A DNA stretch of 64,000 nt. It comes from a bacterium. Lineage in GTDB: Bacteria > AUK180. Shown here one piece after another: positions 2,908-63,967 of the stretch (the stretch's first letter is position 1; each line of letters opens with the position of its first letter). The position numbers and the translations under genes were made by a program. The stretch is from the NCBI GenBank assembly GCA_023144005.1, contig JAGLGN010000005.1, forward strand, positions 90,749 through 154,748. Reading direction: 5' to 3'. The notes beneath the pieces are model-generated. The model was given only the letters and a program-made list of their open reading frames with translations, was not told the origin of the DNA and did not search any database.

Positions 2908-4215
2908 TCATTTCTCTGAAATAGTACTTTTGACCCCTTTTGCGCTGAGCTCTTCTTTAAGTTGAGTGGCTGGCTTCTTATCTTCAAAATTAAAGGTCAT
3001 TTTGTATCCGGCAGGTGTTTCAAGAATATTTCCGCCATGTTTTTCCATAAGAGGCTCGATAACTCCCAATTGATCATCATTCAGGACAGCGGTCTCAACC
3101 ACAAATTGCTTTTTTGTCATATCTCCGAGAATATCATCCTTATCGGTTGAGAAAAGATCGTCAAGATCAATATCTTCTTCATCGGTTTCTTTTCCTTTCT
3201 CTATTTCTTTTTCTTTTTTAGGAACCTTATCATCACCCGCCGCCGGTTTTTTGTAAATGAAGAAATAATATGAAGCAGCGGCGACAACGATAACGATGGA
3301 AATTATCAATATCGCGGCAAGAGGTGATCTTTTCTTCTTAATTTGATCGATTTCGTCATATTCCTCTTCTATCTCTTCCTCTAGCTCTTCTTCAAGATCA
3401 GCGTCTTCCAATACTTCTTTCTCATATTCTTCGGTGAGGGTAGGCGTAAGTTCTTGATTCGCCGTCGACAAGCCGTCCTCAATAGCGGAAGGAGGCGGCT
3501 CTATCTCTCCCGTCTCTTCCTGTGGAATGGGTTGTGGGGCGGGAGTGTTCTCCATATGTGCCATTTCATCTTCAAAACTCGAAGCTATCGTATCCTCTTC
3601 TTCCTTAGACTCTTCCGGAGGCTCAGGAGGTAGGTCGGATTCCACGGTTGCCTCATAGAGGTCTTCTTGGCCATCCTCAATGAGAACGCCCCACGAAGAG
3701 GTTACACCCTGGGCATCTCCATCAGGGGAGTCTTCCAGGATCGCTGTGGGTTCATTGCCGGTTTTTGCGACATCCACGGGGTCGGGGTCTTCCTCAGCAC
3801 CCGCGGGAGCCATCACTTCGGTCTGAGTATCTTCTTCAACATCAAATTCTGTCTCATAGGGCTTGGTCTCGCCCCCGGCTCCACCATCGCCTTCAGCCCC
3901 TTCAATAAGATCATACCATTTGGATTCCGTGGCGACCTTCCCGCCGATCTGAACGACGATGCGGATCTCACAGGGGAAATCACCGCCGATGGGAACCTCC
4001 AATGGAATAATAAATTCATTCTCTTTATTTGCCCCGATAAATAATTCGAAGTCCTGCGTTAGAAGGTTCTGCCCATCCTTCTCGCGGAAGATCAGGGAGA
4101 CGGTGGCGTCCTGGCCCTTTTTATCCTTGTTTTTCAGTGTAACACCCACCTTATCCACTTCCAGGACTTCCTGATTGGAATAAATGGGATTAACCTTCAG
4201 AACTTCTATCATCAT
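2908..4215 (-). CDS. Single-pass membrane protein with acidic linker
   Basis: No family recognised. About 110 N-terminal residues look like a beta-sandwich. A roughly 200-residue linker very rich in Glu, Asp and Pro follows, then KKKRSPL and one hydrophobic segment (AAILIISIVIVVAAASYYFF). After more charged sequence, about 70 residues (from KKQFVVETAVL) look like a small alpha/beta domain, loosely SPOR-like. The charge before the segment suggests a cytoplasmic N-terminus and a periplasmic C-terminal domain. ATG codons lie at 4215 and 4212; the second is better spaced from the GAGG ribosome site. It has its own promoter beginning in the ptsI stop codon. Length and linker suit a cell-envelope or division scaffold, but that is inference. 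Confidence 0.7.
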   Translation of the reverse strand: MMIEVLKVNPIYSNQEVLEVDKVGVTLKNKDKKGQDATVSLIFREKDGQNLLTQDFELFIGANKENEFIIPLEVPIGGDFPCEIRIVVQIGGKVATESKWYDLIEGAEGDGGAGGETKPYETEFDVEEDTQTEVMAPAGAEEDPDPVDVAKTGNEPTAILEDSPDGDAQGVTSSWGVLIEDGQEDLYEATVESDLPPEPPEESKEEEDTIASSFEDEMAHMENTPAPQPIPQEETGEIEPPPSAIEDGLSTANQELTPTLTEEYEKEVLEDADLEEELEEEIEEEYDEIDQIKKKRSPLAAILIISIVIVVAAASYYFFIYKKPAAGDDKVPKKEKEIEKGKETDEEDIDLDDLFSTDKDDILGDMTKKQFVVETAVLNDDQLGVIEPLMEKHGGNILETPAGYKMTFNFEDKKPATQLKEELSAKGVKSTISEK

Positions 4216-4228
4216 ACCTCTATTTTAC

Positions 4229-4257
4229 ATTTTATCAAATTTCAATACACTAATCAA
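4229..4257 (-). promoter_or_regulatory. Sigma-70 promoter of the acidic membrane protein gene
   Basis: On the minus strand TTGATT is followed by 17 nt and TAAAAT, then a short leader with GAGG before ATG. The -35 hexamer overlaps the TGA stop of ptsI, so the gene can be expressed apart from the PTS operon even though only 38 nt separate them. Confidence 0.6.
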
Positions 4258-6029
4258 AAAACAAAGTCTTTTATGGAAGAGAGTTCGTCCTTGAACGAAT
4301 TGACAATGTATTCCCTTACATCAAGGGAAGACTCTAATTCCAGGATCAATGGAAGATGGTCAGCTATATTCTTCAATTCCATCGATGAGATCAATTTTTT
4401 GATCACCGGGATCTTCCAGGGCACCATGGAGAATATCCGCATGCCCAGGATCAGAAGAACGATGAACTCGATTGGGTTCGATGCCATTTCCCCGCAGACA
4501 GAGACCTCGACATCTTTGTTTTCAACATTGTCTGCAAGAAGCTTCAGGATTTTCAAGACTGACGGTTCTAATCCGGAATACAAATAGCTTACCTTCTCAT
4601 TTCCCCTGTCCACCGCCAATGTGTACTGTATCAGGTCATTTGTCCCAACAGAGAAAAAATCAACATATTTGGCCATTTTATCCGCAAGAAGTACCGCGGA
4701 AGGGATCTCTATCATAATGCCGAATCTATATTTCTTCAGTTCGAGGCCTTCGTCAATTAATTCCTTTTCGAGATCTTTCAGAATTTCCTTGATCCTCTTT
4801 ATCTCATCAATATTTGTGATCATAGGGATCAGAATGGAAAGATTTCCACTGCAATTCGCCTTCAACGCTGCTTTCAATTGAATGCGAAGCAAGGATTCAT
4901 TAGCCAGCTGGAAACGTATAGCGCGCCATCCCAGAAATGGATTATCCTCCTTCCTCAATTCGATCTCATTTATCATTTTGTCGCCGCCGACATCAAATGT
5001 TCGAACGGTCACCGGTAAATTCTCATTTGCCGACAGTACCTTTCTATAGTAATTGAATTGCTTCTTTTCCGTTGGAAATGCAGCGGACGTATCTACTAAG
5101 AACTCGGTTCTGAAAAGTCCGATCCCCTCGGCATTGTATTTTTTCACAAGAGGAAGTTCTTCCACTATCTCTATATTGGCTTGTATCCCGATCTTGACCC
5201 CGTCCTTTGAGATCGGCTTACATTCATTTAATTTGTCAAGGAGTTTAAGGCGGTGTTGAAAAAGCTTGTACTCCTCCTCGTAGATCTTCCTGATCTTATT
5301 GGAGGGAGAGAATATGCAGTACCCGCGGAGGCCGTCTAATATAAGCAGATCACTGCTCTTTATCCGATTATGTGCATCCGTTACCATACTGACCGCGGGA
5401 ATATTCAATGATCTTGCGACGATCGCCGCATGTGATGTATATCCGCTTCGGGATATGACAAACCCGAGAACCTTCTCTTTATCAAGTCGGGCCAGATCGG
5501 TGAGTGTTAGAAATTCAGCCACTATGATAACCGGATCCAAAAGGCAAAATTCTTCGCCGGAACCCAGTTCGGCCAAGCCGTCTATTATTAGATGCGCGGC
5601 CTCATAGATATCATTTGCGCGCTCTGAAATATACAAATTGCGGATCTTTGAGAGTTTGATCTTCCAATTATTCGCGGTAACCTTGATGGAATATTCTGCA
5701 TTTACCTTTTTCAATTTTATATTATCCACTATTTCTCCGATAAAGAGCGGATCGGTAAGCAGAGCGGATTGTGCGTCAAATATCTGTAATGTTTCCATAT
5801 CTAGATTTTCATTGAGATTTTCTTTCATTTCCACGACCTTTTTCTTGGCATTATCCAGGGCGTGGTAGAATCTGTCGATCTCGTCTGATATTTCCTCATA
5901 ATTAAGCTTCCGGGCAAAGTTGTTTTCTTCCGATTTGACCAGTACATATGCTCTTCCCGTAGATATACCCGGAGATATTGCAAGGCCTTTTATTACTTGC
6001 TCTGTTTTCAAGTGCTCATCAATATTCAT
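4254..6029 (-). CDS. ptsI: PTS enzyme I (phosphoenolpyruvate-protein phosphotransferase)
   Basis: Cytoplasmic enzyme that autophosphorylates on histidine with PEP and passes the phosphate to HPr. The N-terminal part has KGLAISPGISTGRAYV and the phospho-histidine signature SGYTSHAAIVARS. The C-terminal PEP-binding barrel has GLFRTEFL, GIMIEIPSAVLLADKMA and VGTNDLIQYTLAVDRG. At 591 residues it is close to the usual 570-590. I chose the ATG at 6029 instead of the ORF-track start because AGAGGAG lies 4 nt upstream and the start then follows the HPr stop by 1 nt. It is the last gene of the hprK-PTS run. Confidence 0.97.
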   Translation of the reverse strand: MNIDEHLKTEQVIKGLAISPGISTGRAYVLVKSEENNFARKLNYEEISDEIDRFYHALDNAKKKVVEMKENLNENLDMETLQIFDAQSALLTDPLFIGEIVDNIKLKKVNAEYSIKVTANNWKIKLSKIRNLYISERANDIYEAAHLIIDGLAELGSGEEFCLLDPVIIVAEFLTLTDLARLDKEKVLGFVISRSGYTSHAAIVARSLNIPAVSMVTDAHNRIKSSDLLILDGLRGYCIFSPSNKIRKIYEEEYKLFQHRLKLLDKLNECKPISKDGVKIGIQANIEIVEELPLVKKYNAEGIGLFRTEFLVDTSAAFPTEKKQFNYYRKVLSANENLPVTVRTFDVGGDKMINEIELRKEDNPFLGWRAIRFQLANESLLRIQLKAALKANCSGNLSILIPMITNIDEIKRIKEILKDLEKELIDEGLELKKYRFGIMIEIPSAVLLADKMAKYVDFFSVGTNDLIQYTLAVDRGNEKVSYLYSGLEPSVLKILKLLADNVENKDVEVSVCGEMASNPIEFIVLLILGMRIFSMVPWKIPVIKKLISSMELKNIADHLPLILELESSLDVREYIVNSFKDELSSIKDFVF

Positions 6030-36367: not shown

Positions 36368-36482
36368 CGCGGCCCGCAATGCGGCTATAAGATAGTTGAA
36401 AAGTTCAAGATTACAGGGAGAGAAAAGAAAAATTGATATTTGAATTTCTTACCACCGTACTTCACACCTCACACTTCACACT

Positions 36483-36501
36483 CAGTCTGCGTGGCAGACT
36501 G
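36483..36501. terminator. Perfect hairpin between two convergent TPR genes
   Basis: CAGTCTGC and GCAGACTG form an 8-bp perfect stem with loop GTG. It lies in the 139-nt gap between two convergent TPR genes, 5 nt from the second gene's stop. There is no U-tract, so it may be a weak bidirectional terminator. The AT- and CA-rich sequence before it (TTCACACTTCACAC) resembles the tail words of the dispersed element. Confidence 0.5.
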
Positions 36502-36506
36502 TTGTG

Positions 36507-49559: not shown

Positions 49560-49592
49560 AATATCTCCTGATTATAAACACTTCCACCAATT

Positions 49593-49658
49593 TTGCAACA
49601 AATGCAACGACCGTCCCCCGAATTATTGCAACAAATGCAACGACCGTCCCCCGAATTA
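49593..49658 (-). repeat. Tandem 33-bp repeat (two identical units), left edge of accessory island
   Basis: Two exact head-to-tail copies, 49593-49625 and 49626-49658; on the minus strand each holds GGGGGACGGTCGTTGCATTT then GTTGCAA. Degenerate relatives lie at 50197-50233 (same orientation) and 54558-54595 (opposite orientation). Confidence 0.88.
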
Positions 49659-49659
49659 G

Positions 49660-50067
49660 TTATTTTGTCTTAAATTCCTTTAACTTCAAACGAATCTGAA
49701 AATATTCTTTAATTAATAACAAAAAGATATAGAAGCTTAACCAAAGACTAATGTGAGTAAGTAGAAATACTGCATTCTCAAATATAGGGATCAAAGATAT
49801 TATTAACAGCAAGATTAAAATGACTCCGGAAATAATCAATCCCGTAAACTCCCTTTTAATGAAAATGAAGAGATGAAAATACAGATACGATAGCATCAGG
49901 GTTATAAAAACCGACAGAAAAGGAGAATGGCTGATCACGGGGCTATCTGTTGTAAAAATAATAAAAATTCCGTGTAAAAACAGATATATAAATGCTACAA
50001 CCCCCAACCATATTATCAAGAATGTTATTTTTAAATTCTTTTCACTCTTTACGATTTTTTCAATCAT
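49660..50067 (-). CDS. Small four-helix membrane protein
   Basis: A 135-residue protein with four hydrophobic segments (from IIWLGVVAFIYLFLHGIFII to IFLLLIKEYF) and short charged ends. No family recognised. AAAGGAG precedes the ATG. It is the last gene of the accessory island and its stop lies 2 nt from the tandem 33-bp repeat. Could be an effector or accessory membrane partner of the island, but nothing in the sequence proves it. Confidence 0.65.
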   Translation of the reverse strand: MIEKIVKSEKNLKITFLIIWLGVVAFIYLFLHGIFIIFTTDSPVISHSPFLSVFITLMLSYLYFHLFIFIKREFTGLIISGVILILLLIISLIPIFENAVFLLTHISLWLSFYIFLLLIKEYFQIRLKLKEFKTK

Positions 50068-50196
50068 TTGAATACTCCTTTAAAAGCAATCTCTGCATGC
50101 GCTAGAATCAAAACAATATGGAATTCTTTCCCTCTCATTAGTTGTTCAGGCTCCATTTTGTCAATTCCAGCTCTCCCGAATATCAGCACCTACACC

Positions 50197-50233
50197 TATT
50201 TTGCAACTTTCGCAACTACCGTCTCCGAAATTC
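50197..50233 (-). repeat. Degenerate relative of the 33-bp repeat
   Basis: TTTTGCAACTTTCGCAACTA and CCGTCTCCGAAATT match the 33-bp unit with several changes. The sequence before it (CACCTACACCTA) also resembles that before the first unit (CACTTCCACCAA), so the shared block is longer than 33 bp. It lies in the 223-nt gap between two island genes, where no gene is seen. Confidence 0.6.
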
Positions 50234-50686: not shown

Positions 50687-52402
50687 CTATGAATTATTGA
50701 AAATATCACTTATCTTTTCCATTAAGCCTATAGAGAACCGATTTTTTAGTAACTTATTTACTCTTACAGAATCGGTCAAAATCCAATCACACAACATCAT
50801 TTTGTTCAATTGTTGAATTTCCTTTGTTGCACCATACTCATCTGTCTCTTTTTTCAATGAATAAAAATCGTCCTTTGGAAAATCCGTGGGGACAGTAAGT
50901 AAGTTCTCTATCCCTCTTTTATAAAGGGTGTTTTCTATATTTCGAGGGATTCCCATCACATATAGATTTTCAGTTAGTTCCATGTCATTTTCATTCACAT
51001 CACAATCATATAACAAGATTACTTTTCGATTAACAAAAGAGGAATTAGCCAAAAGGAATTGCCTCACCTTATTAAGTGCACTTGCACCTGTAAATACGGC
51101 TCCTCCAGATTTATTCATTCTCCCTACCCATTTTATCTCGATATCCAGATTCAAATCTCTATATAAAGCTAATGCTTTCTTAAGATATTTCTCATCCGTT
51201 TCACCCTCAACAAAGACAATTGGTTTGTCATTACTCGATATAATGTCTACAGAAAAAGCGATTTCAGTACCTCTTTGAAAGTCCCAGGAAATAAATTCTG
51301 GAAATTCGGGGATATATACCTTACCCCCATCACTTTTTTTAAGAATAATCACTTTTTCTCGATTTTCAGTACTTCTTCCGTGAATAATAAATGGGGAGTG
51401 AGTTGCAATAAACATTTGTGATTGCTGTTTTCCCTCACTATCAGATAATAATGTTTTATAGAAATCAAGGATTTTCAACTGCCAATTAGGATGCATGCTA
51501 ATTTCAGGCTCATCAATTAGCGCAAAAGCTCCTTCATACCTTTTTAAATCTCGCAAAAAGAAACCTCCTCTATATACTATTTGTTTCTCTCCAGAACTTA
51601 GTGCATCAATACTCATTTCTCTGCCGTATTCTCTAAAATATATCTGCTTCTCATTTGGTAGGTTCATTATTCCAAGATATTCTTTTTCTTCAAACATGAC
51701 GTCAAAGGCTTTTGTAAACCTTTGCATTCGCAAGCCCTTTAACAAGTTATTATATTCCTCTTTTTGAATATTACCTTCTCTCGCATCACAATATTTCCTG
51801 ATGTCTTCATTGTCCAGAGTTTGAATATCTAACAACAGTTGCTTAATTTCTGTAGCTAAATTACTATTTGATTTAATGCTACTCAAACCTAAGGATTGAT
51901 CAATATCCATTGAAGATGAATTTTCAATTCGCGTAGAAGTAAAATTAACTTCAGTTGAAGCATATATTGATTTAAAGATTTTTTTTGCGTTTTGTTCCAT
52001 AAGATATTCAGCGATAAACGATTTCTTTTTACCATTGCAAAGGTAATGCACGGATATTTGATACTTCTCTTTTGAATAATCAAACCAAATTTCGATTTCA
52101 TTATTATCGATTTTCTTATCAAGCACTTTATTTGAAGTCACATTGGTCCTTAAAACAGCAATCTCTTCATCGGTCAATTCTAGAGTGAAGAATCTTTTCT
52201 CATTTTCAACATCCCTCGGTATATTTTTTGCGTAATAGAGATGTGAAAATTCATTGATCATTTCTAATAATAATGTCTTGCCGACTCCATTTTCTCCGGC
52301 AAAAATAATTGTATCAAATACTTTGTTATCATCGTCAAACAGTTTTAATTCTATATCTCCAAATAATTTATTATTTAAGAGAGCAATTTTTTTTATTTTC
52401 AT
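50687..52402 (-). CDS. OLD-like AAA ATPase with C-terminal TOPRIM nuclease domain
   Basis: A 571-residue protein of the ABC-type AAA_15/AAA_21 class. Walker A AGENGVGKTLLLEMINEF near residue 40, helical insertion about 100-240, signature LSSGEKQIV, Walker B FALIDEPEISMHPNW and H-loop IATHSPFIIHGR. The C-terminal part (about 385-571) has the TOPRIM glutamate motif VFVEGETDEKYLKK and the acid pair LLYDCDVNENDM, then GIPRNIENTLYKRGIENLL. Such fusions (OLD, GajA, AriA/B-like) act in phage defence; which type this is cannot be settled. The ATG at 52402 follows AGGAG by 7 nt. AT-rich compared with the flanking genes. Confidence 0.87.
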   Translation of the reverse strand: MKIKKIALLNNKLFGDIELKLFDDDNKVFDTIIFAGENGVGKTLLLEMINEFSHLYYAKNIPRDVENEKRFFTLELTDEEIAVLRTNVTSNKVLDKKIDNNEIEIWFDYSKEKYQISVHYLCNGKKKSFIAEYLMEQNAKKIFKSIYASTEVNFTSTRIENSSSMDIDQSLGLSSIKSNSNLATEIKQLLLDIQTLDNEDIRKYCDAREGNIQKEEYNNLLKGLRMQRFTKAFDVMFEEKEYLGIMNLPNEKQIYFREYGREMSIDALSSGEKQIVYRGGFFLRDLKRYEGAFALIDEPEISMHPNWQLKILDFYKTLLSDSEGKQQSQMFIATHSPFIIHGRSTENREKVIILKKSDGGKVYIPEFPEFISWDFQRGTEIAFSVDIISSNDKPIVFVEGETDEKYLKKALALYRDLNLDIEIKWVGRMNKSGGAVFTGASALNKVRQFLLANSSFVNRKVILLYDCDVNENDMELTENLYVMGIPRNIENTLYKRGIENLLTVPTDFPKDDFYSLKKETDEYGATKEIQQLNKMMLCDWILTDSVRVNKLLKNRFSIGLMEKISDIFNNS

Positions 52403-52440
52403 ATTCGTTCTCCTCAAGCTCTAATATATTTGATCCCTTC

Positions 52441-52485
52441 TTCACATAATTGTCCATTGTCAACTGGGCATTGTTCATTTCTTCA
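52441..52485. repeat. Weak word-like repeat between PIN and ATPase genes
   Basis: ATTGTCCATTGTCAACTGGG and nearby words resemble the tail vocabulary of the dispersed element (compare copy E). It lies in the 156-nt gap between the two defence-like genes. Too short and degenerate to be certain. Confidence 0.3.
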
Positions 52486-52558
52486 AGACCCCTCCATAAT
52501 ACAGATCACTTCTTCGGTTAAATTTAAAAATTGGGAAATATGTAAAATAGGAAATGAG

Positions 52559-53995
52559 TTATTCATCTTTTCCAATAATCTCGCTTACTCTTTCAAAGGT
52601 ACTCTTGCGATTGTATTTAATCTTAATCGCCCTATAATCTCTTATTGGTTTAAATAAATTTTTCCCCGTAATAATACATGAAATTTTCTCTATTTCTGAT
52701 TCTTCTAAGTCAGTAGGAAGATGAAGTAAGAAGGTAAATTCTTTCTCTTCATGTTGATGTCTGAATTCTTCACATTGAATTATTTTATCACTATGAGCTT
52801 CGTAAGGCCATGATTCTTTATAATAAAACGCGTTTCTATCTCTCTTTGGGGGTGCCAAAGAACTTAAATCAGGATAAGAAGAGGCTGAAAGATGATTACG
52901 TGCAATTTTAATGACCTCGGGTATTATTGCTTTTTCTTGTGATATCCATGCTCCTCTCGGAGCTTCCGTGGGTTTTGGTAAGGGTGATATTCTTGTAAAA
53001 TTCTGAAAATTATCTATCACTTCCTTTGAAGCAAATTGAATATTCCCAAGTAGTTTGAATTCTATCTCAAGATTTTCCACTGGGCTATTTCCATTATTCT
53101 TTAATTTATACATCATCCATAAATATCTTGATGATTGTGAAAATTCCCAATTAATATTCGAAAGCCATTTCTCTATATTCTCTATCCATCTAGGATATTC
53201 CTTCTCTATATATTCATCTATTTCTTTTAAAGTTGGTGGCTCGTAGGTTAATTTAAATGTCTCCTCGATTTTTTGCTCTTTCATTGCTTGGTCTTTCAAA
53301 TCTGAAAAGTCGTAAATTGGATATCTTTCTTTCAATTTTTCGATAATTTTTCCCTTTTCCTCTGGTGTGAGCTCTTCATAAATATCTACTTTAAATATTT
53401 CACAATCACCTAAGATTTCGGAACTTAATTCAACTTTCGGTAGAGGCATTCTTAGTTTTCTATTTTCGTCTTCCAAGTGCAAAATCCTCTTACTTAGATC
53501 ATCGTTTTCGGGAGGCAACAGCCAAGAATTAGGAATAGGGACATAATGAAGGTCGCAACTTGCGGCAGTCACCATTGGAATTGTATCATGTGTCAATAGA
53601 ATTATTTCATCTTCTTTATGTTTTTCTTGATACAATAGCGCCTCAGCAATTATTCTATCATCCGTTTTGCTCATATTAAGAATGCTATTTTGAATTGTTA
53701 ATTGATCTGAATGATACAGTGGACTAAATAGAAATATTGTCTTAATTTCATCTTTTGTAAAAGATAATTCCTTTTTCTCGTTAGTAATAATCTGTCTAAA
53801 AAAAGAATTTGCGGCACGAGCTCTCTTTGCTCTTCTATTATTCCCACTATTTTTTAACCTATCGATTTCCCCCTGAACAGGCCTAGAAATAAGAATTAAT
53901 ATTTCACTTGCATCTACAGCAATATCCTTCCATGGAATTTCCTTGTAGTCCCTGCATTGCAAAAAGAAGTTTGTGTCAATGAAAAATACTTTCAA
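52559..53995 (-). CDS. PIN-domain ribonuclease with long C-terminal region
   Basis: A 478-residue protein. The N-terminal PIN domain (about 1-165) shows the acidic set: VFFIDTNFFL, RPVQGEIDRLK, SKTDDRIIAEALL and LLTHDTIPMVTAASC. By family knowledge this is a metal-dependent RNase centre. A short coiled segment (LSKRILHLEDENRKLR) leads to about 280 residues not recognised. TTG at 53995 is preferred: GGAGGG lies 6 nt upstream and the TTG overlaps the previous TGA by 4 nt. Single long PIN proteins next to ATPases occur in defence loci; no antitoxin-like partner is obvious. Confidence 0.8.
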   Translation of the reverse strand: MKVFFIDTNFFLQCRDYKEIPWKDIAVDASEILILISRPVQGEIDRLKNSGNNRRAKRARAANSFFRQIITNEKKELSFTKDEIKTIFLFSPLYHSDQLTIQNSILNMSKTDDRIIAEALLYQEKHKEDEIILLTHDTIPMVTAASCDLHYVPIPNSWLLPPENDDLSKRILHLEDENRKLRMPLPKVELSSEILGDCEIFKVDIYEELTPEEKGKIIEKLKERYPIYDFSDLKDQAMKEQKIEETFKLTYEPPTLKEIDEYIEKEYPRWIENIEKWLSNINWEFSQSSRYLWMMYKLKNNGNSPVENLEIEFKLLGNIQFASKEVIDNFQNFTRISPLPKPTEAPRGAWISQEKAIIPEVIKIARNHLSASSYPDLSSLAPPKRDRNAFYYKESWPYEAHSDKIIQCEEFRHQHEEKEFTFLLHLPTDLEESEIEKISCIITGKNLFKPIRDYRAIKIKYNRKSTFERVSEIIGKDE

Positions 53996-54426
53996 ATATT
54001 TCCCTCCACAATCCGAATTTCTTCTTCTGTCAATTTTGTTCTGTTCCCCCATAAGTCTTTTCGCATTGCTTTTGTAGTGCTTATAAAGGTACTCTCACTT
54101 GGAGATTCAATGAAGTTCTTCAACGATATTATCACATCATCAGAAGAATAAAGAAGTTCGTGATAGTAGTATTCTTTTACGGTATTAAAGTAGTATTCCG
54201 AATTTGTCTGATCAGAGGCTTGATGTATCGAAAAGTATTCTTTCTTCTTAATATCAAGAGAGCAAGCCATGAAAATCAGCAGGTTCTTATAATGTTCGGA
54301 TTTGATTTCATTAAGCCTTTGTGCCAATATCGTTTTCTTTTCCAGTTGGTTCCTAATAATTACAGAAGTAATTCCTCCCAAGCCCAAAGAAGTAACAATT
54401 GTAATCAATATTTGAAAAGTATTCAT
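53992..54426 (-). CDS. Small membrane-anchored protein of a defence-associated type
   Basis: A 144-residue protein with one N-terminal membrane segment (FQILITIVTSLGLGGITSVI), a helical coiled region with EKKTILAQRLNEIKSEHYKN, and a C-terminal tail with TTKAMRKDLWGNRTKLTEEE. I recall this tail (AMRKDLWG plus TKL) as recurrent in uncharacterised small membrane proteins beside restriction-modification and other defence genes, but no function is known. ATG overlaps the TGA of the 29-codon ORF. Confidence 0.72.
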   Translation of the reverse strand: MNTFQILITIVTSLGLGGITSVIIRNQLEKKTILAQRLNEIKSEHYKNLLIFMACSLDIKKKEYFSIHQASDQTNSEYYFNTVKEYYYHELLYSSDDVIISLKNFIESPSESTFISTTKAMRKDLWGNRTKLTEEEIRIVEGNI

Positions 54427-54512
54427 TTATCTAAGCTCCCCTCCATAATCCTAATTTCATCGTCCGGAAATCCATACAATTCATAAACGAGTTTATCGAT
54501 CTTCTTATCCAT
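54423..54512 (-). CDS. 29-codon ORF resembling the C-terminal tail of Eco57I-like restriction-methylases
   Basis: ATG (54512) to TGA (54423), too short for the ORF track. The peptide MDKKIDKLVYELYGFPDDEI... ends MEGSLDK. The IDKLVYELYG-[D/E]-EI-x-IxE pattern is typical of the extreme C-terminus of Eco57I/TaqI-like adenine methyltransferase-restriction proteins. It has a purine-rich ribosome site (GGGAG) and its TGA overlaps the ATG of the next gene. It is either a relic left after loss of a restriction gene or a short coupling peptide; the first is more likely. Confidence 0.55.
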   Translation of the reverse strand: MDKKIDKLVYELYGFPDDEIRIMEGSLDK

Positions 54513-54557
54513 TTTTCACTCCCTCTCCCTCCCCATTTCCTGCTCTGTTGGAGATTC

Positions 54558-54595
54558 TAATATGGGGACGGTGGTTGATATTGTTGACATAATTT
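54558..54595 (+). repeat. Inverted relative of the 33-bp repeat, right edge of accessory island
   Basis: TAATATGGGGACGGTGGTTG continuing into ATATTGTTGACATAATT aligns with the reverse complement of the 49.6-kb unit (GGGGGACGGTCGTTGCATTT...). Orientation is opposite to the left-edge copies. Confidence 0.6.
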
Positions 54596-54744
54596 CAGGA
54601 GTTATATTTATATTTCTCATTCTCTCCCACTTAATCTGATAGAAAAGAGAATTGAAATGTTTCATTGCGCGCCTCCACTCCAAGTATTTGTTTGTACTTG
54701 TATAAGTTTACATCTTTTCAGAGGTTTTATCAAGTGAGTGAAGC

Positions 54745-55090: not shown

Positions 55091-55126
55091 ATCGCGCTTG
55101 ATATATCCTCTCTTTTCATTTATAAT
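55084..55126 (+). promoter_or_regulatory. Cupin-ftsEX operon promoter with overlapping palindrome
   Basis: TTGATA (55098-55103), 17 nt, TATAAT (55121-55126). The perfect palindrome CAAGCGC-ATC-GCGCTTG (55084-55100) runs into the -35 and could be an operator or the end hairpin of element copy B. Confidence 0.7.
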
Positions 55127-55174
55127 AGTAATTGTAGGAAAGGAACGCTCCTATTTGAATAATTGGAGGAAGAA

Positions 55175-55519
55175 ATGGTCATAAGAAAACACTTTGCTGA
55201 AGTTGAATTAGAAAAAGTTGACATGGAGGGCGCGACAGGCACTTCGATCAGATGGCTGATAGCGAAGAAGGACGGTGCGGAGAACTTCGCGATGAGGATG
55301 TTCGAGCTGGAGAAGGACGCCCATACCCCTGAGCATGTGCATGAATGGGAGCATGAGGTATTCGTTCTGGAGGGCAGCGGCGTTCTGGCAACAGAGGACG
55401 GCGATTTTTCTCTGAATCCGAATGATTTCGCTTTCGTTCCCGATATGCGTCTACATCAATTTAGAAATACTGGAGATGGGGTATTTAAATTCCTCTGCGT
55501 GGTGCCGATAAAAGAATGA
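55175..55519 (+). CDS. Cupin-domain protein
   Basis: A 114-residue single cupin barrel. Metal-binding motif 1 reads HTPEHVHEWEHEVFVLEGSG (two His, a Glu-containing segment) and motif 2 LNPNDFAFVPDMRLHQFRN. No enzyme type can be named; such small cupins often bind or isomerise small metabolites. ATG at 55175 follows GGAGG by 6 nt, better than the TTG in the track. Its TGA overlaps the ftsE ATG by 4 nt, so it heads the cell-wall operon. Confidence 0.87.
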   Translation: MVIRKHFAEVELEKVDMEGATGTSIRWLIAKKDGAENFAMRMFELEKDAHTPEHVHEWEHEVFVLEGSGVLATEDGDFSLNPNDFAFVPDMRLHQFRNTGDGVFKFLCVVPIKE

Positions 55520-56178
55520 TCGAACTCAAAAATGTTTCTGTCGTTTTCGAAAGAGATATTTTCGCATTAAAAAATGTGAATGCCTCCGTGAACAGCGGAG
55601 ATTTTCTCTTTCTGCTTGGTCCTTCAGGTGCAGGAAAGACAACGCTATTAAGACTTCTGTACAAAGATATCACCCCCACTTCAGGGAAGATCATTTTTGG
55701 CGGGACCGATCTGGAGAAGCTTCCGATAAGAAAACTCCCCTTTTTCAGGAGAAAGATCGGTATCGTCTTTCAGGATTTCAAGCTTCTTTATGACAGGACA
55801 GTTTTTGAAAATATCGAATTTGCCATGTTCGCGCTCGGGCATCGGCCAAGTTACATCCGGCGAAGGGTGAAAGAGGTTCTAAGACTTCTTAAGCTTAACG
55901 GCAAAGAGCACTTATTCCCTCATCATCTTTCAGGCGGCGAGCAGCAGAGAGTTGCCATTGCCAGGGCGATTTCAAATTCGCCTCTGGTACTTATCGCGGA
56001 CGAGCCCACCGGCAATCTTGACGATGCGATAAGCATTGATATCATTAAGGAGTTCAGGGAATTGAATCTATTGGGGATGACCGTGATCGTCGCGACACAT
56101 GATGAGCGGCTGGCCGAGCTGGTCTCCAATCACAGAAGTCTCTTTTTGAAAGATGGCGAGGTACTCGGCAGTGATTAA
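55516..56178 (+). CDS. ftsE: Cell-division ATP-binding protein FtsE
   Basis: Cytoplasmic ATPase that with FtsX activates periplasmic murein hydrolases at the septum. A 220-residue ABC protein of MacB/LolD size: GPSGAGKTTLLRLLYKD, GIVFQDFKLLYDRTVFEN (the FtsE-type Q-loop), LSGGEQQRVAIARAI, LIADEPTGNLDD and ATHDERL. Adjacent ftsX confirms the assignment. Confidence 0.96.
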   Translation: MIELKNVSVVFERDIFALKNVNASVNSGDFLFLLGPSGAGKTTLLRLLYKDITPTSGKIIFGGTDLEKLPIRKLPFFRRKIGIVFQDFKLLYDRTVFENIEFAMFALGHRPSYIRRRVKEVLRLLKLNGKEHLFPHHLSGGEQQRVAIARAISNSPLVLIADEPTGNLDDAISIDIIKEFRELNLLGMTVIVATHDERLAELVSNHRSLFLKDGEVLGSD

Positions 56179-57031
56179 AAACCTGGCATATTTCATTAGA
56201 GAAGGCACAAAGAATATCATCAGGAATTCTTCCGTTACTGTCATTTCAGTCACTCTGATCTCAATATCACTTTTTATCATCGGAGTAATGTTCTCCATCT
56301 TCAACACCGTCGAGCTCCTCATTGATAATCTGAGCTCTTCACCATCGCTGATATTCTATATCAAGGAGACGGCAACTATCACTGAAAGAGAAGACCTCAT
56401 GACACGGCTTGAAGAGGAGCAAGCGGTCAAACGTGTGGAATTCCTGAACAAAGACGATGTCTTTTCAAAGATCAAGGACGATGAAAATATCGAGGACCTG
56501 ATTGAGATCTACGGCAAGGATATCCTTCCGGAAGCAATATGGGCATTTACAAAGGGATCGGTCAAGCCGGACGATCTGGCTGCCATATACGGGAGATTCA
56601 AAGATCATCAGGCGGTTGAAAGCTCGACCCTTCAGAAGCAATTGAGCGATCTGGTAATGTATTTGAAAAACTTCGGGAGCGCGATCTTTATTCTATTTTC
56701 ACTCTTGGTGGTACTCATCGTCGGGAATGCGATCCGGCTATCGGTTTTTACCAAGGATCAGGAGATCTATTTAAAAAGATTGATCGGCGCGACTGAAACC
56801 TTTGTCCGCTTTCCCTTTATGGTGGAGGGTATCTTAAAAGGCCTGATCGGCGGAGTGGTGGCGGATCTTTTCTTTCTCCCATTATACCTTTTTAAAAACT
56901 CTATCTTTCCGCCTGAAATATTTTCGCGTTTTACCCTGATCTCCCCTATTCAAGCGATCTATATGATTATAATTGGAGGCGTTTTCGGATGGCTGGGTTC
57001 GCTCATTTCCGCAAAGATTTATTTAAAGTGA
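56153..57031 (+). CDS. ftsX: Cell-division membrane protein FtsX
   Basis: Inner-membrane partner of FtsE. The 292-residue protein has the FtsX layout: a first membrane helix near 20-45, a periplasmic domain (about 55-165) that recruits an activator, then three membrane helices near 175, 225 and 270. Motifs YFIREGTKNIIRNSSVTVIS and EIYLKRLIGATETFVRFPFM are family-typical. A GTG at 56171 preceded by GCGAGG would shorten the overlap with ftsE from 26 to 8 nt and is an equally good start. Confidence 0.93.
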   Translation: MARYSAVIKNLAYFIREGTKNIIRNSSVTVISVTLISISLFIIGVMFSIFNTVELLIDNLSSSPSLIFYIKETATITEREDLMTRLEEEQAVKRVEFLNKDDVFSKIKDDENIEDLIEIYGKDILPEAIWAFTKGSVKPDDLAAIYGRFKDHQAVESSTLQKQLSDLVMYLKNFGSAIFILFSLLVVLIVGNAIRLSVFTKDQEIYLKRLIGATETFVRFPFMVEGILKGLIGGVVADLFFLPLYLFKNSIFPPEIFSRFTLISPIQAIYMIIIGGVFGWLGSLISAKIYLK

Positions 57032-63788: not shown

Positions 63789-63797
63789 GGCATTAAG

Positions 63798-63967
63798 AAG
63801 TGTGAAGTCTGAAGAGTAAAGTGAAGAGAATAAAACAATATCCACACCCGTAAGCGAAAAATCAATATTTCGTCTATTTTATTAAAATCAATAGCTAAAA
63901 TATATAGAACGCCGGAGCGTAGTAGGATATGGGACATGTCGTACGCCGCAGGCGTTCGTCTGTCCCG
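63798..63967 (-). repeat. Dispersed intergenic element, copy C (reverse), with hairpin
   Basis: Read on the minus strand: a hairpin with GGGACA...TGTCCC ends (plus 63931-63966, about 14 paired bases, loop GCA), TGTCCCATATCCTACTACGC, CTCCGGCGTTCTATATATTT, then the core variant TTTTTCGCTTACGGGTGTGG and a short tail TCTTCAGACTTCACACTTCT. It starts 10 nt after the anti-sigma gene. The last 30 nt of the window hold a TTGACA that may begin the next promoter. Confidence 0.7.

Follow-up and report, generated by a model that had tools for sequence, protein, structure and literature searches.

The window, i.e., the complete stretch of 64 kb that was analyzed, contains on its minus strand an ORF of 29 codons (54423-54512), which starts with an ATG at position 54512 and encodes the peptide MDKKIDKLVYELYGFPDDEIRIMEGSLDK, followed by a stop codon. 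An AGGGAG ribosome site (54519-54524, minus strand) is located 6 nt ahead of the ATG. It is part of a leader (54513-54734, minus strand) that also contains a weak promoter-like site (54705-54733, minus strand) and has an unremarkable predicted RNA folding (z 0.44). Farther upstream, genes for a cupin and an FtsE-like ABC ATPase (55163-56178, plus strand) form a conserved flank, which anchors the locus in the window and in G001, a genome of the same genus. At the other end, the stop codon of the ORF overlaps the ATG of a gene for a 144-aa protein (53992-54426, minus strand) as ATGA; this coupling to the next gene had been pointed out in an earlier sequence-only reading and is directly visible. 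The likely Shine-Dalgarno sequence of the 144-aa gene is GGAGGGGAG (54436-54444, minus strand), which lies within the tail codons of the ORF (ME-G-S), 9 nt before the next ATG.

The tail of the ORF and its copies in the operon

A resemblance of the ORF to the end of Eco57I-type restriction-methylases had been noticed in the sequence-only reading, and searches with the peptide indeed revealed similarity to the tails of these enzymes. The 29-aa peptide matched the end of an intact type IIG enzyme encoded on another contig of its own genome (59% identity over 27 aa, E 1.8e-6) as well as the last 27 residues of the enzyme of G001 (67% over 27 aa, E 1.7e-10). It contains the consensus C-terminal tail of type IIG (Eco57I-type) enzymes, IDxLVYxLYGLTxEEIxIVEG. 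With 61.5 bits it is the top match of a tail profile within the window, compared to best scores of 5.2-12.1 bits in 20 shuffled 64-kb sequences; the profile has 14 rows, one of which is the window peptide itself, and the pairwise enzyme matches are independent of it. The peptide matched no family in Pfam or NCBIfam, and the profile matched no solved structure.

The three best profile matches of the whole window are found on the same strand and in the same operon. A second, partial tail copy (LTEEEIRIVEGNI, 53992-54033, minus strand, 20.0 bits) is fused to the end of the 144-aa gene. It is followed by a PIN-domain gene (52559-53995, minus strand) with a probable TTG start, which overlaps as TTGA and is preceded by GGAGGG in the second tail. 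Beyond the PIN gene, a short ORF probably represents a third, partial copy (NLTEEVICIMEGS-stop, 52483-52521, minus strand); its score of 11.7 bits is within the range of the shuffled sequences, and it is mainly the position that speaks for it. Next comes a gene for an AAA ATPase (50687-52417, minus strand), which resembles the defense ATPases PtuA/AriA. In DNA, the repeat formed by the tail copies of the window is weaker than the repeats of related loci (22 of 26 bases). The tail of the ORF is one of up to three copies in the operon.

For the 144-aa protein, which has a possible N-terminal membrane helix by inspection, no family was found in Pfam, NCBIfam or PADLOC, and no close homolog in 145 genomes. 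The sole relative retrieved in a contig search is encoded in a Parcubacteria MAG (L036) and is 40% identical; it has the AMRKDLWGNRTKL motif in common with the 144-aa protein, lacks the tail extension, and is not located beside an enzyme gene. The suggestion that genes with the AMRKDLWG end often reside next to such restriction enzymes thus found no support. By inspection, the L036 relative (3024-4408) adjoins a tyrosine-recombinase-like gene.

The intact enzyme gene of G001 and the origin of the ORF

At the orthologous locus of G001 (contig 40), the genes for the FtsE-like protein and the cupin are followed by a divergent, intact gene for a protein of 1010 aa. It encodes a type IIG restriction-methylase (PADLOC REase_MTase_IIG, 3e-205), which aligns partly with the solved adenine methyltransferases 8cxz and 8c45. 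The full-length chain with methylase and nuclease parts is absent from the window, where the ORF has only 29 codons. Window positions 55094-56440 match the G001 locus with 89%. Leader and enzyme start match with 86% over about 244 bp (54492-54734 of the window and 1854-2097 of L037), and this match ends just past ATGGATAAGAAGA in the first codons of the enzyme. After this common start, G001 runs into the enzyme body, whereas the window runs on with TCGATAAACTCG, which is tail-like (TTGACAAACTGG). Both ends of the ORF are therefore homologous to the intact gene of G001, the second one with the 67% protein identity of the tail.

With the exception of an interspersed repeat of about 85 bp, the leader is unique. 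A leader query of 254 bp matched at nearly full length (full 242-bp match) at the orthologous locus only, in both genomes searched, and the remaining, shorter matches comprised little beyond the repeat. The repeat (ATGTCAACAATRTCAACCACCGTCCCCAT..., window positions 54512-54601) is situated directly ahead of the enzyme start and has about 40 matches in G001 and a few in the genome of the window. Four further segments of the window (49561-49664, 50118-50233, 36459-36502, and 63797-63823) have matches at several sites around the G001 locus (L061) and are possibly other interspersed repeats of the genus. An ORF of 49 aa within the leader (54516-54665, 76% to G001) was considered as a gene and rejected, with a dN/dS of about 0.6-0.8 and a second half that consists of the interspersed repeat.

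Because both ends match the enzyme gene of G001, and because the leader matches at nearly full length only there, sequence comparison identifies the ORF as the enzyme's own start (MDKK) in frame with a tail of the enzyme's own type, with about 2.95 kb absent. Type IIG/Eco57I-type restriction-methylases are thus the source of the tail, and the ORF of the window retains start and tail alone. The junction TGGATAAGAAGA (54500-54511, minus strand) is identical at the enzyme start of G001 and is matched at 10 of 12 positions by TGGACAGGAAGA at the start of the G001 tail, a 12-bp near-repeat seen in a relative, which may have been present in the true parent allele as well. Because TGGAYARGAAGA is present at both ends, an in-frame deletion of about 2.95 kb via microhomology would be the simplest explanation. 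Such a deletion between the start-codon repeat ATGGATAAGAAGA and the similar TGGAYARGAAGA at the tail start would result in an in-frame fusion and would spare the promoter region, the ribosome site with the start codon, and the tail together with its stop codon. Translation would begin at the former start codon of the enzyme, continue for 29 codons, and resume at the ATG of the 144-aa gene, which overlaps the stop codon, and the Shine-Dalgarno sequence within the tail codons would facilitate this reinitiation. Most likely, the remnant would act as a leader cistron. Altogether, we are rather confident that the ORF was left over from a type IIG gene of about 1,010 codons by a deletion of about 2.95 kb between short repeats, and that it most likely serves as a leader cistron.

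The intact gene of G001, which has the same 5' leader ahead of it and ends in a matching tail, supports the earlier proposal that a restriction gene was lost by deletion and that its 3' tail stayed behind as a leader cistron. The accompanying remark that the rest of the enzyme is missing, yet a start codon and a ribosome site remain, is right in that both are present and has to be modified in that both are the enzyme's own, hence the deletion would be an internal one. The polarity of the event is deduced from the fact that the enzyme is a full-length, normal member of its family, because G001 is the only relative with an intact locus; G002, G004, G005, and G006 contain the cupin gene without an adjoining enzyme gene.

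The gene order in G001, i.e., enzyme, a gene for a 480-aa protein, and a stand-alone tail, opens up a variant of the deletion. The tail of the ORF might have been a stand-alone tail once located behind an accessory gene, and recombination with the enzyme start would have removed both the enzyme and the accessory gene. The DNA of the window tail is 80% identical to the stand-alone tail and 76% identical to the enzyme tail of G001, but this corresponds to a difference of a few bases; in addition, the window has GGGGAG past the IVEG codons, like the enzyme tail, and the microhomology at the start codon agrees with the enzyme tail in 10 of 12 bases. We regard this variant as rather unlikely, albeit one to be taken seriously. 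Since the genome is a draft of 38 contigs, an assembly artefact might have joined the two ends of an intact enzyme gene. However, the junction is located inside a contig with a conserved flank, and the genes after the junction differ from those of G001, and it would be very surprising if the fusion had arisen in this way. The shortness of the ORF might even suggest a chance ORF unrelated to restriction enzymes, but with a profile score about 50 bits above the best shuffled sequence and with a 5' end that is homologous to the enzyme gene, a fortuitous origin has virtually no probability.

Stand-alone tails in other genomes

The remnant itself is nothing unusual; of more interest are the recurring tails, which represent a variant of known recombination scars. 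In a wide search of 386 genomes, mostly one genome per genus across the domain, tails were found in 97 genomes, and many of them sit in short frames, also in single-contig genomes. A second wide search covered nearly the same genomes and is thus not independent, and two small searches of phyla added a few; 60 further loci were read. Short tails at contig edges (L040, L041, L044, L045, and others) might be cut enzymes and were left out as evidence for stand-alone tails. In the 386-genome search, 10 of 68 intact enzyme frames (>800 aa), or about 15% by hand count, are accompanied by a stand-alone tail at a distance of up to about 4 kb. All 15 near pairs of an intact enzyme and a stand-alone tail from all searches are on the same strand, with the tail downstream. 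Stand-alone type IIG tails, as recognized by the profile, are a recurrent pattern in many unrelated bacteria.

Most tail pairs of the same locus have a DNA identity of 82-97% over about 40-170 bp, and a few have one of 77-79%; examples are 58 of 60 bases in L067 and 127 of 145 bases in L038. A repeat of the 3' end (score at least 27) in the next 4 kb was found for 9 of 15 tail genes versus none of 222 other genes (at least 250 aa) of the same loci, whereby 9 of 15 is not a frequency, the loci having been picked for stand-alone tails, and the 10 of 68 given above is the fairer estimate. In related loci, genes are flanked by direct tail repeats, as is expected for insertion with long target duplication. 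The boundaries of the repeats vary among loci, which speaks against the fixed core of a site-specific integration.

Various genes are found between and behind the tail copies. In L049 (1551-4123), an EcoRV endonuclease and a D12 methylase are encoded between two copies of the tail region, which are identical at 133 of 140 bases. Genes at tail copies encode an HTH-IrrE peptidase and a DUF4411 protein (L043), Fic (L067, L073), RhuM (L042, L080, L081), PIN and ASCH proteins (L079), a HEPN protein (L038), SEFIR/TIR (L061), AAA ATPases (L046, L048), a KAP NTPase (L074), a DUF3800 protein (L118), and a UvrD helicase (L097). SIR2 is encoded at a tail copy in L047 and also behind an intact enzyme in L121. 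Some of the adjacent genes are not recognizable as defense genes, e.g., that for a TPR protein (L066) and several without a family. An enrichment of defense genes beside the tails is our impression, judged without a matched background set. The G001 gene located between the enzyme gene and the stand-alone tail (L061, 5106-6545) encodes a protein of 480 aa, which matched no family in Pfam, NCBIfam or PADLOC and is a candidate defense protein.

The peptide of the stand-alone tails could be a functional small protein, for example a subunit or a regulator that works without the enzyme body, and it is true that the reading frame of stand-alone tails is preserved in many lineages, as is their IVEG end. 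However, their upstream boundaries are variable, several copies lack a start codon, are truncated, or contain an interrupting stop codon, and one copy is fused to another gene, namely the 144-aa gene. The conservation is explained by recent duplication, as most pairs have a DNA identity of 82-97%, together with the embedded ribosome site, and a function of the peptide appears improbable.

The 3' end of the enzyme gene as a possible joint

The gene behind a tail often begins within a few bases of the tail stop. Where the next gene starts within 20 nt, GAG is used for the E of IVEG in 17 of 22 tails, whereas local codon use predicts 9.1 (z 3.6, an optimistic value, given that related tails lack independence and that the tails were split in this way after a weaker pooled result); in other tails it is used in 19 of 34, compared to 17.2 expected. 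The test pools enzyme tails, stand-alone tails, and some tails at contig edges. The preference for GAG would fit the view that the last codons of the tail are the ribosome site of the following gene.

The patterns described above suggest insertion or displacement anchored in the 3' end of the enzyme gene. The data fit either additive tail-anchored insertion, illegitimate on one side, or displacement of an older enzyme that leaves its tail behind. A general role, which we consider an evenly balanced question, would be that the type IIG 3' end is a recurring joint for defense-gene arrays across phyla. It would provide coding homology for recombination, its last codons (IVEG, GTGGAGGGG) would be the Shine-Dalgarno sequence of the next gene, and each event would add a coupled defense gene and a copy of the tail.

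Insertion of restriction-modification genes with a long, variable target duplication is known (Nobusato 2000; Furuta 2010; as cited in PMC3031569). Similarly, the genes described here are bounded by direct repeats of variable length, from tens of bp to about 170 bp, and the EcoRV restriction-modification pair of L049 is located between two copies. In contrast, the repeat is always the type IIG 3' end here, it is found in genomes that are unrelated to each other, and it provides the next gene with a ribosome site. The arrays of orphan immunity genes of Vibrio type VI secretion systems (T6SS) have been explained by a sequential displacement of effectors via homology-facilitated illegitimate recombination anchored on one side, which leaves 3' ends behind (PMC5361080). 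The tail loci are likewise gene arrays with leftover 3' ends, but unlike the T6SS arrays of effector and immunity genes they consist of restriction-enzyme tails together with defense or toxin-antitoxin genes. In the literature searched, the coverage of which was partial, we did not come across type IIG 3' ends described as a joint of this kind.

In the absence of a visible mobile element, it is often unclear how defense islands acquire their genes. Stand-alone type IIG tails would mark sites of gene gain and loss, and any genome can be searched for them. The tails also point to possible unrecognized defense genes, e.g., those for the 144-aa and 480-aa proteins, and short tail ORFs should be checked before they are annotated as genes or as truncated enzymes. 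In L079 (4439-4589), the tail of an enzyme of 1274 aa appears to be frameshifted, and its end continues in another frame as a tail of 45 aa.
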